Shown piece by piece: positions 22,542 to 27,226 of a DNA stretch of 64,000 bases (its first letter is position 1; each line of letters starts with the position of its first letter). The position numbers and the translations under genes are program-made. The stretch comes from Flagellimonas aquimarina (lineage in GTDB: Bacteria > Bacteroidota > Bacteroidia > Flavobacteriales > Flavobacteriaceae). The notes below the pieces were generated by a model. It had not been told where the DNA came from. It saw only the letters and a program-made list of their open reading frames with translations, and made no database searches. The stretch is taken from the NCBI RefSeq assembly GCF_003149745.1, contig NZ_QGEG01000002.1, forward strand, positions 372,001 through 436,000, given 5' to 3'.

Positions 22542-24743
22542 ATGGGTCTTACTAATACCGATTTGCACTCCTCACTAAAAAAATATTTTGGTTTTTCAAA
22601 ATTTAAGGGGCTACAAGAAAAAGTAATACAAAACATACTAGAGAACAAGGACACTTTTGTAATAATGCCTACAGGTGGAGGCAAGTCTCTTTGTTATCAA
22701 CTGCCGGCAATTATGAAAGAGGGTACCTCTATCGTGGTTTCTCCCTTAATTGCGCTTATGAAGAACCAAGTTGATGCCATTCGCGGTGTATCCGATGAGC
22801 ACGGCATTGCCCATGTTTTAAATTCTTCACTAACAAAAACTGAGGTAAAACAGGTAAAAGAAGATATTACCAATGGGATCACGAAATTATTATACGTTGC
22901 TCCGGAGTCTTTGACAAAGGAGGAGAACGTGGAGTTTTTAAAAGGTGTTCCACTATCCTTTGTCGCGGTGGACGAAGCACACTGTATCTCAGAATGGGGT
23001 CATGACTTTAGGCCAGAGTATCGCAATCTAAAAAGTATAATTAATCGTTTGGGTGAAAACATTCCCATTATTGGGCTTACTGCAACGGCTACGCCAAAGG
23101 TGCAGGAAGATATTATCAAAAACTTAGGAATGACAGATGCCAAGGTTTTCAAGGCATCTTTTAACAGACCCAATTTGTTTTATGAAGTACGCCCTAAAAC
23201 ACAAAATGTTGATGGCGATATCATTCGTTTTGTAAAACAGAACCAAGGAAAATCTGGGATTATCTATTGTCTTAGTAGAAAAAGAGTAGAAGAACTGGCC
23301 CAAGTTTTACAGGTTAATGGGGTTAGTGCGGTGCCATATCATGCCGGTTTTGATGCTAAAACACGGTCAAAGTACCAAGACATGTTTTTAATGGAAGATG
23401 TTGATGTGGTAGTTGCCACAATTGCCTTTGGCATGGGCATAGATAAACCAGATGTGCGTTTTGTGATTCATCATGACATTCCAAAAAGTATTGAAAGTTA
23501 CTATCAAGAGACAGGAAGAGCAGGAAGAGATGGTGGTGAGGGACATTGTTTGGCGTTTTATTCTTACAAGGACGTTGAAAAATTAGAAAAGTTCATGTCT
23601 GGAAAACCAGTGGCTGAGCAGGAAATCGGGAATGCTCTCTTACAAGAAATTGTAGCATATGCAGAAACTTCTATGTCTCGCAGAAAATTCATCCTCCATT
23701 ATTTTGGGGAAGATTTTGATGGGGAAAAGGGAGAAGGTGCGGATATGGATGATAATGCAAGAAACCCCAAGAAAAAAGAAGAGGCTCAAGATGATGTAAT
23801 TAAACTTTTGACCGTTGTTAAAGGAACCAACGAAAAATTTAAGACAAAAGAAACCGTAAAAATATTGGTTGGCAAAGTAAATGCCATGATATCATCACAC
23901 AAAACAGACGAAAAGGATTTCTTCGGAATTGGCTCTGAAAGGGATGAAGCTTATTGGATGGCATTGACTAGGCAGGTGCTGGTGGCAGGCCTGTTAAAAA
24001 AAGAAATTGAGCAATACGGTATTTTACATTTAACCGAAGCAGGCAGGAATTTTTTAATTGAACCCTGCTCTTTTCTAATGACCAAAGACCATATTTATAG
24101 CGAGGAGAATAATGATGCCATCATAACAGCAAGTAAATCGGGAGGTGGCTCTACAGATGATAAATTGCTGAAATTGTTGCGTGATTTGCGAAAAAATGAA
24201 GCAAAAAAGATTGGTGTACCACCTTTTGTGGTGTTTCAGGATCCATCTTTGGAGGATATGGCCCTAAAATATCCTATTAACAATGAAGAGCTCCTTACCA
24301 TTCACGGGGTTGGAGAAGGAAAGGCCAAAAAGTATGGCAAACCATTTTTAAATCTAATTGCCGGTTATGTGGAAGAGAACGATATCATCAGACCAGATGA
24401 TCTTGTGGTTAAAAGCACTGGTGCCAATTCTGGTTTAAAACTGTACATCATCCAAAATGTTGACAGAAAGTTGCCTTTAGATGATATTGCTTCGGCAAAG
24501 GGTTTGGAATTGCCATCTCTTATTAAAGAAATGGAACAGATTGTATTTAGCGGAACAAAGTTGAACATTGGGTATTGGGTTGATGAAATACTTGACGAAG
24601 ACCAACAAGAAGAAATCCATGAATATTTTTTAGAAGCAGATTCAGACTCCATATCTCAAGCAATTGATGAGTTTGATGGCGACTATGAAGATGAAGAATT
24701 AAGGCTCTACAGGCTCAAATTCATTAGTGAAGTGGCGAATTAA
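22542..24743 (+). CDS. recQ: ATP-dependent DNA helicase RecQ, zinc-ligand cysteines absent
   Basis: RecQ unwinds DNA with 3'-5' polarity in recombination repair. The 733-residue protein has Walker A PTGGGKS (43-49), DEAH (144-147), the aromatic-rich loop CISEWGHDFRPEY and motif VI QETGRAGRDGG. An HRDC domain with GVGEGKAKKYG lies near 585-625. In the RecQ zinc subdomain (about 370-410) every cysteine expected to bind zinc is replaced: AETSMSRR stands for the first pair and DMDDNARNPKK for the CDNC pair. The flanking HYFGE motif is kept. A winged-helix region follows. The gene starts in the space divergent from kdsD and its stop interlocks with a convergent DUF2752 gene. Confidence 0.96.
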   Translation: MGLTNTDLHSSLKKYFGFSKFKGLQEKVIQNILENKDTFVIMPTGGGKSLCYQLPAIMKEGTSIVVSPLIALMKNQVDAIRGVSDEHGIAHVLNSSLTKTEVKQVKEDITNGITKLLYVAPESLTKEENVEFLKGVPLSFVAVDEAHCISEWGHDFRPEYRNLKSIINRLGENIPIIGLTATATPKVQEDIIKNLGMTDAKVFKASFNRPNLFYEVRPKTQNVDGDIIRFVKQNQGKSGIIYCLSRKRVEELAQVLQVNGVSAVPYHAGFDAKTRSKYQDMFLMEDVDVVVATIAFGMGIDKPDVRFVIHHDIPKSIESYYQETGRAGRDGGEGHCLAFYSYKDVEKLEKFMSGKPVAEQEIGNALLQEIVAYAETSMSRRKFILHYFGEDFDGEKGEGADMDDNARNPKKKEEAQDDVIKLLTVVKGTNEKFKTKETVKILVGKVNAMISSHKTDEKDFFGIGSERDEAYWMALTRQVLVAGLLKKEIEQYGILHLTEAGRNFLIEPCSFLMTKDHIYSEENNDAIITASKSGGGSTDDKLLKLLRDLRKNEAKKIGVPPFVVFQDPSLEDMALKYPINNEELLTIHGVGEGKAKKYGKPFLNLIAGYVEENDIIRPDDLVVKSTGANSGLKLYIIQNVDRKLPLDDIASAKGLELPSLIKEMEQIVFSGTKLNIGYWVDEILDEDQQEEIHEYFLEADSDSISQAIDEFDGDYEDEELRLYRLKFISEVAN

Positions 24744-25138
24744 GGTGCCAGATACTCAAAAGGAAAACCTTTTAAATTTCGCAATACCATAAAAAGAAGG
24801 ACTATACCTAAAATAACCAATGGAGAATATCTATGGTTAAGAAGACTTTCCTGCTTTAAAATTCCCAATTTTGAGGTTACATGTTGCCCAATAACGAACA
24901 TGGCTGGAAGGAACAATAGATTATGGCTTATGGCATCTTTGATTCTTAAATGCAGTAAATCATGAATTGCCCTTTGGCTCCCACATCCGGAACAGTAAAT
25001 TCCAAGGTATGTATTAAAAGGGCACTTTGGAAATAACAGTCCTCTTTCCGGATTGAAAGAAAAGTAAAGGAGTATTGCCAAAACAGACAATACTCCTAAA
25101 AATACTATTACGGATATTTTTTTAATAGCTTCCGGCAT
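24740..25138 (-). CDS. DUF2752 membrane protein, second copy in the cluster
   Basis: This protein of about 132 residues (from the ATG at 25138; a frame from 25168 adds ten polar residues) has three hydrophobic segments. The DUF2752 signature is seen in KCPFNTYLGIYCSGCGSQRAIHDLLH, with three Cys residues in CP and CSGCG and a conserved QR. The function of DUF2752 is unknown; the Cys arrangement could bind a metal or form disulfides at the membrane face. The start overlaps the end of the CD225-family gene by 17 nt. It is the last gene of a four-gene operon that opens with another DUF2752 protein. Its stop overlaps that of recQ by 4 nt. Confidence 0.83.
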   Translation of the reverse strand: MPEAIKKISVIVFLGVLSVLAILLYFSFNPERGLLFPKCPFNTYLGIYCSGCGSQRAIHDLLHLRIKDAISHNLLFLPAMFVIGQHVTSKLGILKQESLLNHRYSPLVILGIVLLFMVLRNLKGFPFEYLAP

Positions 25139-25409
25139 TTGCCATACCTCCAAGAATTGCAAATCCAAATATTGCGAAATAGATGATCCAAATCAAAACT
25201 GAAAGGCCAGCACCTATCAACGCCCACATTTTTGCGTTTTTAGATGCTTTTTGAGCTTCTTCATATTCACCTCTGGCATATGCTTCATTAACTTTAGAGG
25301 CGTAAATAATACTTGCAATTCCCGTAGCAATACAACAGAATATTGTGCTTAAAATGGCCCAGACCAAATAATTATCTGGTTTAGGCGGCATGTTTGAATT
25401 GTTTTCCAT
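25122..25409 (-). CDS. CD225/dispanin family small membrane protein
   Basis: This 95-residue protein has the CD225 layout: a Pro/Asn-rich N-terminus, a first half-membrane helix in NYLVWAILSTIFCCIATGIASIIYA with a CC pair, the conserved charged link SKVNEAYARGEYEEAQKASKNAKMW, and a second hydrophobic segment. Eukaryotic relatives (IFITM) modify membrane fusion; bacterial members have no settled role. It is in the middle of the operon with two DUF2752 genes and a CCC-motif gene, 24 nt after the latter. A role as a membrane-shaping or scaffolding factor is conjecture. Family assignment is confident. Confidence 0.86.
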   Translation of the reverse strand: MENNSNMPPKPDNYLVWAILSTIFCCIATGIASIIYASKVNEAYARGEYEEAQKASKNAKMWALIGAGLSVLIWIIYFAIFGFAILGGMANAGSY

Positions 25410-25433
25410 TATAGTTGATTAAATATTTAGTTA

Positions 25434-25766
25434 TTAATTATATTGTTCCATTGCTTCTTGATAAGCAGACTTGAATTCTTCAATGAACTCCCCAAATCCA
25501 CCTGCGTTATAAATAATGTAAATCCATCTTACCACCATCAACACACTTAAAATAAGCGCTATTAGCGATATTATTTTCCCAGTTTTTATCTGACTGTAAT
25601 TATCATATTCATCCGGGTTTTCCTTATACAGTTTTTCAGATTTTGTAGCCAGGAAAAAACCAATTCCTGATGAAATTGTACCAAAAATACCGGTACAGCA
25701 ACAAATGAATCCGAAAATACCAAGGACAATACTCAATACCCCATTTGGCAGCTTTTTTTGTTCCAT
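25434..25766 (-). CDS. CCC-motif membrane protein
   Basis: This 110-residue protein starts with a short polar segment (MEQKKLPNG) and a hydrophobic region with the striking CCC triplet in IFGFICCCTGIFGTISSGIGFFLA, then a charged acidic loop (KSEKLYKENPDEYDNYSQIKTGK) and a second membrane helix, with an amphipathic C-terminal tail. The arrangement resembles that of CD225 proteins, to which it may be distantly related, and both lie side by side here. The cysteines near the membrane could be lipidated or metal-binding, as S-palmitoylated cysteines are in IFITM, but this is only a comparison. Function unknown. Confidence 0.8.
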   Translation of the reverse strand: MEQKKLPNGVLSIVLGIFGFICCCTGIFGTISSGIGFFLATKSEKLYKENPDEYDNYSQIKTGKIISLIALILSVLMVVRWIYIIYNAGGFGEFIEEFKSAYQEAMEQYN

Positions 25767-25776
25767 AATTTTAAAG

Positions 25777-26145
25777 TTATTGTAAAAGTTTAAATAAATA
25801 ATTGGTTAAAATAGTTGCTACGCTAACAATACCTAGGGTAATAATAATTTGATTGGCGTGTTTAATTTTACGAAAGTTATTTACCAATAAAAAACTGAAC
25901 AGTAAAAATAACGGATAAATAGCCGGATACATTGTAAATGCAGCTAAAAACTCACCCTGAAAAATTAAACTGACTGAACGTTGCATACCACATCCAGGAC
26001 ATTCAAAGCCAAACAGTTTCTTGTTTAGGCAAGGCAACATATAGTTCTTTGCATAAAGCAAGAAAATAGTCGGTTGTAGATACATAATAGCAATTACTGC
26101 CAAGAAAAATACTACTATTTTTGCTATTGATATTAAACTTTTCAA
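25777..26145 (-). CDS. DUF2752 membrane protein, first copy in the cluster
   Basis: This 122-residue protein has three hydrophobic segments and the DUF2752 core motif LFGFECPGCGMQRSVSLIFQGE, with CPGCG and QR matching its paralogue at 24740-25138 (YCSGCGSQRA). The rest of the two sequences differs, so the duplication is old or the genes were brought together separately. It opens the four-gene operon; the CCC-motif gene follows after 10 nt. Only 26 nt separate it from the divergent Smr gene, so the promoter of each gene must lie largely inside the other. Its role is unknown. Confidence 0.84.
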   Translation of the reverse strand: MKSLISIAKIVVFFLAVIAIMYLQPTIFLLYAKNYMLPCLNKKLFGFECPGCGMQRSVSLIFQGEFLAAFTMYPAIYPLFLLFSFLLVNNFRKIKHANQIIITLGIVSVATILTNYLFKLLQ

Positions 26146-26171: not shown

Positions 26172-26714
26172 ATGGCGGTCTTTAATATAGGTGATCAAGT
26201 GGCAGTGTTGGACGAAACCATATCCGGTATGGTCAAGGCAAAGGATGGGGATGTGATTACCCTTGTCACCTCTGACGGTTTTACGCTGAAGTATGCTACC
26301 AAAGAACTTGTAAAGGTAGAAGGGGGTATAAATGTTACAAATTTTGAAGCTGCACAAGGCCAAAAAGCCAAGGAGCTTACCAAAAAGAAACCAATTCCTG
26401 TTTTAAAGCCAAAAGAGCGAAATGCACCTAAAATGGAGGTGGATTTGCATGTGAATCAGTTAGTAAAATCGACAAAGGGCCTTTCCAATTTCGAAATGCT
26501 AAACTTACAGTTGGAGAGTGCCAAAAGACAGTTGCACTTTGCAATGGACAAACGTATTCAAAAAGTGATTTTTATACATGGAGTGGGTGAAGGCGTCCTT
26601 AAAGAGGAACTGTATTATCTATTTAGGAAATATGATAACATCAAGTTTTATGATGCGGACTACCAAAAATATGGGCTAGGTGCAACAGAGGTCTATATAT
26701 ATCAAAATTCTTAG
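26172..26714 (+). CDS. Smr domain protein with N-terminal beta domain
   Basis: From the ATG at 26172 the protein has about 180 residues. The N-terminal 60 residues (VFNIGDQVAVLDETISGMVKAKDGDVITLVTSDGF) look like a KOW/Tudor-like beta barrel. A linker rich in Lys and Pro follows. The Smr domain takes up about residues 95-180, with its first motif VDLHVNQL and the HGVGEGVLKEEL turn, which in relatives forms the nuclease or nucleic-acid-binding site. Without the MutS ATPase part it is a stand-alone Smr protein, a class linked to RNA cleavage on stalled ribosomes or to DNA nicking. An upstream frame from 26121 is not needed. Its stop interlocks with the convergent lipoprotein gene. Confidence 0.88.
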   Translation: MAVFNIGDQVAVLDETISGMVKAKDGDVITLVTSDGFTLKYATKELVKVEGGINVTNFEAAQGQKAKELTKKKPIPVLKPKERNAPKMEVDLHVNQLVKSTKGLSNFEMLNLQLESAKRQLHFAMDKRIQKVIFIHGVGEGVLKEELYYLFRKYDNIKFYDADYQKYGLGATEVYIYQNS

Positions 26715-27226
26715 TTGGGAATTACCGTTGTAACTTCCCCGAATTCATCAATGGTCAAATTTGTAATGCGTTCACCAGCGGCGGTTACAAAGGAAACACC
26801 GCTCAGACTTATGGTGTGAACAAAATTTGTGCTGTCCGCATCAGCAGTGGTCTGTACAGTGACCAATCCGTCCTCTGCCACTATTTCTTGAACAACTGTA
26901 GGGGTAACAGGTGGAATCTCATCGCAAAAATAGTTGTTGCTGACATCACCTGAAAAAATACGGTAAGTTATGCTGGTTTGACCTGGCACAGTGCTCTCGG
27001 TAGTAACAGTTTCTCCAACCACACCATTGTTCAAAACACTACTTTGTAAATCCAAGATTAAAGCCTCATCAACGTTGATCTTGAACAAAACATTTGTTGA
27101 TGAAGCCTCAAGATCATTGCAAGATTGTGGCAAAACATTGTCAAAATCTATTGTTTCAATTTGTAAATCACCATCACTACAAGATAGCACCAACATTAGC
27201 AAGATTGGGAGCGATAATTTTCTCAT
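26711..27226 (-). CDS. hypothetical lipoprotein
   Basis: The 171-residue product has a lipoprotein signal (LPILLMLVLSC with Cys near residue 16), followed by a polar mature part rich in Thr, Val, Asp and Glu with alternating beta-like segments (TVQTTADADSTNFVHTISLSGVSFVTAAGE). No recognised domain is visible. It is transcribed toward the Smr gene, with a 4-nt stop overlap, and is divergent from the cysteine desulfurase gene. It is probably attached to the outer or inner membrane facing the periplasm or surface. Real gene status is supported by the signal and length; the function is unknown. Confidence 0.8.
   Translation of the reverse strand: MRKLSLPILLMLVLSCSDGDLQIETIDFDNVLPQSCNDLEASSTNVLFKINVDEALILDLQSSVLNNGVVGETVTTESTVPGQTSITYRIFSGDVSNNYFCDEIPPVTPTVVQEIVAEDGLVTVQTTADADSTNFVHTISLSGVSFVTAAGERITNLTIDEFGEVTTVIPN

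Follow-up and report, generated by a model that had tools for sequence, protein, structure and literature searches.

What are four tiny membrane-protein genes doing side by side in the genome of Flagellimonas aquimarina, and do they form one system or several? They lie on the minus strand at 24740-26145 of a 64,000-nucleotide (nt) stretch of contig NZ_QGEG01000002.1, called the window. In gene order they encode a short-type DUF2752 protein (D1), a CCC motif membrane protein (CCC), a member of the CD225/dispanin family that includes the animal IFITM proteins (CD225), and a long-type DUF2752 protein (D2); they are separated by 10 nt and 24 nt and then overlap by 17 nt. An earlier note, made from the sequence alone, had described this geometry, assigned the families, and proposed one membrane module built with CD225. 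Sequence reading and profile matches confirmed the geometry, and the family names were borne out, since the two DUF2752 proteins scored 57.5 and 65.3 bits with PF10825 (cut-off 27), the CD225 protein 93.1 bits with PF04505 (cut-off 27.1), and the CCC protein 114.8 bits with NF040945 (cut-off 65) while also passing the cut-off of PF07666 (MpPF26). The membrane character of all four proteins is likewise supported. Of the proposed module, the link of DUF2752 to CD225 and CCC stood, but not the single four-part system: judged from gene content and order across genomes, the cluster is two abutting units, short DUF2752-CCC and CD225-long DUF2752, which appear to be divergent forms of one kind of unit.

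The evidence begins in the host family. We took 120 genera of Flavobacteriaceae, applied three profiles (DUF2752, CD225 and CCC), and counted genes as linked when they lay within 1.5 kb on the same strand. DUF2752 was present in 106 genera, CD225 in 31, and CCC in 93 (90 above the cut-off). DUF2752 genes are paired with the other two families: CCC or CD225 stood beside 121 of 132 DUF2752 matches, and DUF2752 stood beside 32 of 33 CD225 and 107 of 111 CCC matches. The 111 CCC rows remained after ten low-scoring ones, eight of them CD225 genes matched by the CCC profile, had been dropped; a broken gene (G061) contributes two of them, one per fragment, and another gene (G060) entered the CD225 count as well. 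To judge from these counts, the clustering is far beyond chance.

How the families combine speaks for two units. The commonest arrangements in the host family were short DUF2752 followed by CCC (60 clusters), CD225 followed by long DUF2752 (17), and short DUF2752-CCC-CCC (13). A second sample, the best 80 of 529 loci found through CD225 (L numbers below denote loci of this and of the other samples) and read with 3-kb flanks, is selected by CD225 and had DUF2752 at 74 loci; 34 loci carried CD225-DUF2752 with no CCC in the flanks, 25 had the order D-CCC-CD225-D seen in the window, D standing for DUF2752, and 32 contained all three families. The expectation that the families would be found together outside the genus thus held, all three also sharing one cluster in 11 of the 120 genera; in one of these genomes (G010) the two units lie on opposite strands. 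Independent conservation, which the earlier note had set against its own module, was found for the halves, namely at the 34 loci and in the 60 clusters just mentioned. Finally, four of the 80 loci had the swapped order CD225-D-D-CCC, which suggests that the halves of the cluster move as units. A fifth swapped locus, in Flavivirga, has its CD225-side DUF2752 gene split between frames (L167:3245-3626), likely a pseudogene or a sequencing error. An apparent natural CD225-DUF2752 fusion (L207) was rejected when a six-frame reading showed two overlapping frames.

The six CD225 loci without DUF2752 comprised three from Bacteroidales-type metagenome-assembled genomes (MAGs) or isolates (L186, L188 and L201) and three from Mycobacterium. 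A search of nine genomes found DUF2752 in all nine, these six included. Two of the three from Mycobacterium have a copy next to CD225 as well as one next to TM2 (L236/L240 and L238/L241); in the third, only a CD225 neighbour was found (L235, with L239 the locus without).

The two units also resemble each other. Aligned with hhalign, the CCC and CD225 profiles, both of which contain rows picked with the double cysteine, gave a probability of 95.8 and an expectation (E) value of 7.5e-9, and the CD225 protein of the window weakly matched the CCC model (E 4.1e-6) and MpPF26 (E 1.1e-5), both below the cut-offs. CCC and CD225 are probably distant homologous hairpins, small proteins of two membrane segments, and therefore the window would hold the same kind of pair twice.

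The pairing reaches well beyond the family. Among 198 Bacteroidota genomes, DUF2752 was present in 104, TM2 in 113, CD225 in 3 and CCC in 26 (16 above the cut-off). With adjacency set at 600 nt on the same strand, 91 of 116 DUF2752 matches adjoined TM2 (71), CCC (18) or CD225 (4), two lying near two of these; in the other direction, DUF2752 adjoined 71 of 141 TM2, 3 of 3 CD225 and 19 of 21 CCC matches (14 CCC rows below the cut-off were dropped, and two DUF2752 and three TM2 rows below theirs were included). TM2 is thus the usual neighbour of DUF2752 across Bacteroidota. Several DUF2752 genes that have none of the three partners adjoin other small membrane proteins. A scan of 45 neighbours of DUF2752 genes without CCC or CD225 (43 of 55 such neighbours, plus two added by hand) returned TM2 eight times, DUF4234 six, DUF4870 four, DUF5684, Brain protein I3 and CorA three times each, Pmp3 and SPFH/Band 7 twice each, and others including several singletons.

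Some of these neighbourhoods have features of their own. A 55-residue zinc-ribbon membrane protein is encoded beside DUF2752 in three Bacteroidota genomes (L043:2664-2828, L049:1535-1699 and L130:1522-1686), and presumably accounts for the three Brain protein I3 (PF10164) matches. By eye, a TM2-DUF2752-DUF4870-like triplet recurs at L039, L040, L041, L042, L044, L096, L102 and L105, and at L141 and L279 DUF2752 adjoins a presumable SPFH/Band 7 gene.

Outside Bacteroidota, 149 Actinomycetota genomes had DUF2752 in 40, TM2 in 21 and CD225 in 14. At the 29 best-scoring DUF2752 loci, CD225 lay beside 8 and TM2 beside 2; counted from the other partner, 11 of 17 CD225 matches had DUF2752 in the same locus, these loci partly overlapping the 29. 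A further case is L220, from a MAG labelled Pseudomonadota: its CD225 gene lies 6 nt before DUF2752, and the product seems on reading to carry a zinc ribbon. The Bacteroidales CD225 proteins of L186, L188, L199, L201, L232 and L234 carry a long N-terminal extension which we take to resemble a GYF_2 domain.

Partner type tracks the DUF2752 tree. It required 6 changes on the tree compared with 60-75 in 200 shuffles, with 163 of 200 rows labelled; when the 37 rows for which no partner was named, left out of that count, were added, the figures were 20 changes and a shuffled mean of 99.5. The tree itself is poorly supported, with stars on 29 of 197 inner branches, and near-copies add to the clustering of partners. 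Gene order differs by partner: of the labelled rows, 84 of 85 have CD225 upstream of DUF2752, CCC follows DUF2752 in 41 of 44, and TM2 follows it in 20 of 34, most TM2 genes of the Bacteroidota sample lying downstream too. This suggests that the genes became neighbours, or changed places, on more than one occasion. These data bear on one alternative, that small membrane genes of unrelated roles merely share promoters and the neighbourhood has no function. Many of the linked loci come from one phylum and adjacency is heritable, as that explanation would have it; the same partner families recur, however, in Bacteroidota, in Actinomycetota and in the MAG labelled Pseudomonadota, and both gene orders and hairpin families differ among the pairings. 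We consider an idle neighbourhood distinctly improbable.

The same distribution speaks to a second alternative, drawn by analogy with animal IFITM, in which the four genes would be an anti-phage or anti-injection defence module. DUF2752 and CCC, present in most host-family genera, are unlike a patchy defence gene, and membership of the CD225 family is the only property of the cluster that recommends the idea. Among known and candidate defence families PADLOC matched only ZorA, for D1, at E 0.068 and 10 bits, PHROGs gave one family of unknown function, for CCC, at E 0.039, a search of viral contigs found no CD225 relative, and a search of plasmids returned only an 11.85-Mb Nonomuraea record. 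Adjacent CD225 and DUF2752 genes do occur in an unannotated 7.5-kb sequence from human faeces labelled 'Bacteriophage sp.' (MT839860.1:3049-3729), which may be bacterial DNA. Of all the explanations considered we rank defence as the least likely, and very improbable.

What do the members of the units share? The three cysteines of the DUF2752 motif C-x(9-10)-C-x2-C-G are conserved: they were kept in 28 of 28 rows from host-family loci and in 77 of 79 from loci across the phylum, counted with a profile that was itself built from an alignment of cysteine-picked rows. All 36 rows of L235-L270 (35 Actinomycetota; L237 is Bacteroidota) have them, as do all filled DUF2752 rows of the CD225-locus set (106-107 of 108, two rows being partial). 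The alignments made here contain rows picked by cysteine patterns or drawn from lists compiled in that way, so that invariance within them is partly circular. In the two departing rows, L147 and L138, CPGCG has become CPGEG or CPGDG, so that the third cysteine is Glu or Asp, a replacement that would fit a metal ligand. Rubredoxins and zinc ribbons have a C-P-x-C-G knuckle. On the hairpin side, the CD225 double cysteine was found by script in 40 of 42 rows from Pfam-found host-family loci, some of these rows being CCC proteins; the two misses are L035, in which the pair lies just past the tested stretch, and the second CD225 of L030.

TM2 hairpins tell a related story. Comparing the sequences of 49 of the 71 linked and 69 of the 70 unlinked Bacteroidota matches, we found a cysteine in all 49 TM2 segments linked to DUF2752, whereas without the link 35 of 69 have one (Fisher p 1.5e-10), an association that is suggestive only. 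The cysteine mostly lies close to where the second helix begins, and a hinge pattern describing this position matched 49 of 49 linked and 12 of 69 unlinked sequences, and in Actinomycetota 4 of 4 and 1 of 22. Both hinge counts are post hoc, the pattern having been written after the linked sequences were seen and L367 fitting only through an added pattern, so the weight rests on the any-cysteine count.

How might the two proteins of a unit act? That the two genes work together we regard as highly probable. Our proposal for the manner of it is tentative, perhaps somewhat short of probable. DUF2752 and the hairpin of one unit (CD225 or CCC) would form a dedicated complex in the inner membrane; the C-x(9-10)-C-x2-C-G-x2-R loop of DUF2752, placed at the membrane surface, would be a thiolate site, most likely metal-binding, beside the cysteines of the hairpin; DUF2752 would hold, stabilise or assemble the hairpin; and the hairpin would serve some housekeeping function of the envelope by organising the membrane.

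The model of D2, with a mean predicted local distance difference test score (pLDDT) of 95.4 and a predicted template modelling score (pTM) of 0.82, has one long N-terminal helix, a region of short helices that carries the cysteines, and two more helices. Charge counts under the positive-inside rule suggest that the N-terminus of DUF2752 lies inside and the cysteine loop outside. A model of the CD225 and DUF2752 proteins of L078 joined in one chain reached pLDDT 86.5 and pTM 0.75, with the double cysteine (residues 25-26) at a break between helices. Fold searches of the PDB with D2 and with the joined model yielded nothing that reached E 0.001, weaker matches being disregarded; a search of BFVD gave no match for D2, and a sequence search of the PDB gave nothing credible for DUF2752. 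Searched against the PDB, the profile of bacterial CD225 relatives finds PRRT1 chains (E 2.4e-16).

Cysteines on both partners, together with the predicted outer placement of the loop, would also suit a thiol-disulphide relay, in which disulphides would pass between DUF2752 and the hairpin on the outer side of the inner membrane. A relay accords poorly, however, with an odd number of cysteines and with the replacement of the third one by Glu or Asp in 2 of 79 rows; the lack of a PDB fold match for D2 is weak evidence in the same direction. We think such a relay rather improbable.

Alternatively, DUF2752 could be an enzyme that modifies the hairpin cysteines, such as an S-acyltransferase, and so a bacterial counterpart of the DHHC enzymes that act on animal IFITM. 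The hairpin cysteines are placed where animal IFITMs are acylated, DUF2752 has conserved cysteines of its own, and one paper reports S-palmitoylation of mycobacterial IFITMs produced in human cells (PMC4488726). That acylation, however, was the work of human cells. Neither D1 nor D2 has a DHHC motif on direct reading or a Pfam DHHC match, the sole such match in the cluster being the CD225 protein at E 0.061, below the cut-off, and the charge counts place the DUF2752 cysteine loop on the outer face, away from acyl-CoA. An acyltransferase is unlikely, in our view; the S-acylation and membrane fusion that the earlier note had brought to this cluster were transferred from the animal proteins, and would apply here by analogy.

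Several observations weigh against a dedicated, metal-bearing pair and must be set beside the evidence for it. The families also occur apart: 70 of 141 Bacteroidota TM2 matches and 6 of 17 Actinomycetota CD225 matches stand without DUF2752, and TM2, CD225 and CCC are all absent beside 25 of 116 Bacteroidota DUF2752 matches and 19 of 29 Actinomycetota loci. The double cysteine of CD225, recounted with rows from Pfam-found loci, is present in only 9 of 16 Actinomycetota rows; L392, L394, L401 and L402 have one cysteine, L395 has one elsewhere, and the rows of L397 and L398 are incomplete or score weakly. The association of TM2 cysteines with DUF2752 comes largely from one lineage, and after correction for phylogeny three independent pairs support it and, in the any-cysteine test, none opposes it, which is not significant, significance being out of reach at that number. 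As to contact, a joined-chain pTM of 0.75 without an interface score is no proof that CD225 and DUF2752 touch. What the data show are the pairing, how widely it occurs, how partner type follows the DUF2752 tree, and the conserved cysteines; the physical complex, the metal and the assembly and envelope roles are inferred.

The features of the cluster itself are collected below. Here the span given in the earlier note needs one amendment: the four genes are present, and D1 probably starts at the ATG at 26085 rather than at the TTG at 26145. The later start gives 102 residues and the earlier one 122, the orthologues in L150-L156 have 100-106, and a shared A/T-rich element falls inside the longer reading.

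Features of the four-gene cluster, with positions in the window
Feature	Position	Strand	Basis and remarks
D1, short-type DUF2752, 102 amino acids	25777..26085	minus	PF10825 E 5.2e-18 (scanned from 26145); start revised
D1 motif C-x9-C-P-G-C-G-x2-R	25978..26031	minus	direct reading; conservation by profile
CCC motif membrane protein, 110 amino acids, CCC at codons 22-24	25434..25766	minus	NF040945 E 1.9e-33; MpPF26 PF07666 E 4e-12
CD225/dispanin-family protein, 95 amino acids	25122..25409	minus	PF04505 E 1.1e-26
CD225 double cysteine, codons 25-26	25332..25337	minus	direct reading; usual, not universal, among relatives
D2, long-type DUF2752, 132 amino acids	24740..25138	minus	PF10825 E 1.5e-15; 17-nt overlap with CD225
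D2 motif C-x9-C-S-G-C-G-x2-R	24971..25024	minus	direct reading; conservation by profile
A/T-rich promoter-like element, putative function	26104..26124	minus	similar sequence upstream of D1 in L150, L152, L153 and L154

A RecQ gene and an Smr-domain gene flank the cluster, according to the Pfam scan of the window. The nearest CD225 loci among those found are labelled Allomuricauda. The close relatives L150, L151, L152 and L154, read by first residues, have the flanking order of the window, with desulfurase-like, small lipoprotein-like and Smr-like genes at one end of the cluster and a RecQ-like gene at the opposite end; the flanks of L155 and L166 have a different order. A small lipoprotein-like gene without a Pfam match lies at 26711-27226 of the window, and the relatives have similar small genes by the desulfurase-like gene near the cluster.

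How do these genes compare with what has been described? The third gene of the window is a CD225/dispanin protein (IFITM, PRRT; PF04505) by profile, with the double cysteine described for dispanins in PMC3282796; as to the loop motifs A-x6-A, also described there, and G-D, A52 and A59 are present and G47 is followed by Glu, not Asp. The passages on this family in the papers cited here treat the protein alone, whereas in the window it is half of a conserved gene pair. The CCC protein matches known models (NF040945 and PF07666) and differs in being, here, a probable distant homologue of CD225. The outer genes belong to DUF2752 (PF10825) by profile, a family which our analysis links to hairpin partners, and TM2 (PF05154) and Brain protein I3 are small membrane proteins that elsewhere occupy the same place beside DUF2752, though not in this cluster. 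The function of bacterial IFITMs had not been studied, by the statement of a 2015 paper (PMC4488726); the double cysteine of bacterial dispanins is noted as unexplained in a passage of PMC3282796; and a SNARE-like reading of the animal CD225 domain is put forward in a part of PMC11730294. In the open literature searched, no paper found names DUF2752, PF10825 or 'CCC motif membrane protein', and nothing on a DUF2752-hairpin pairing turned up there in searches on bacterial IFITM, dispanin and TM2 proteins. Although the families themselves are already known, their conserved pairing and the view of this cluster as two pairs appear to be new within that literature.

A bolder version of the proposal may be stated, although we think it unlikely. 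The small cysteine-bearing membrane hairpins of bacteria (CD225, CCC, TM2 and BRI3-like) would form one class with DUF2752 as its ancestral partner, the three DUF2752 cysteines and one from the hairpin would complete a shared metal site, and animal IFITM, TM2 and BRI3 would be hairpins that lost their partner. If true, the shared site would explain the frequent double cysteine of bacterial dispanins, though bacteria are said not to palmitoylate it.

In conclusion, DUF2752 is a likely partner for the bacterial proteins related to IFITM, the antiviral family of animals, and the pairing provides a first context for DUF2752 itself, a family found in 106 of the 120 host-family genera.

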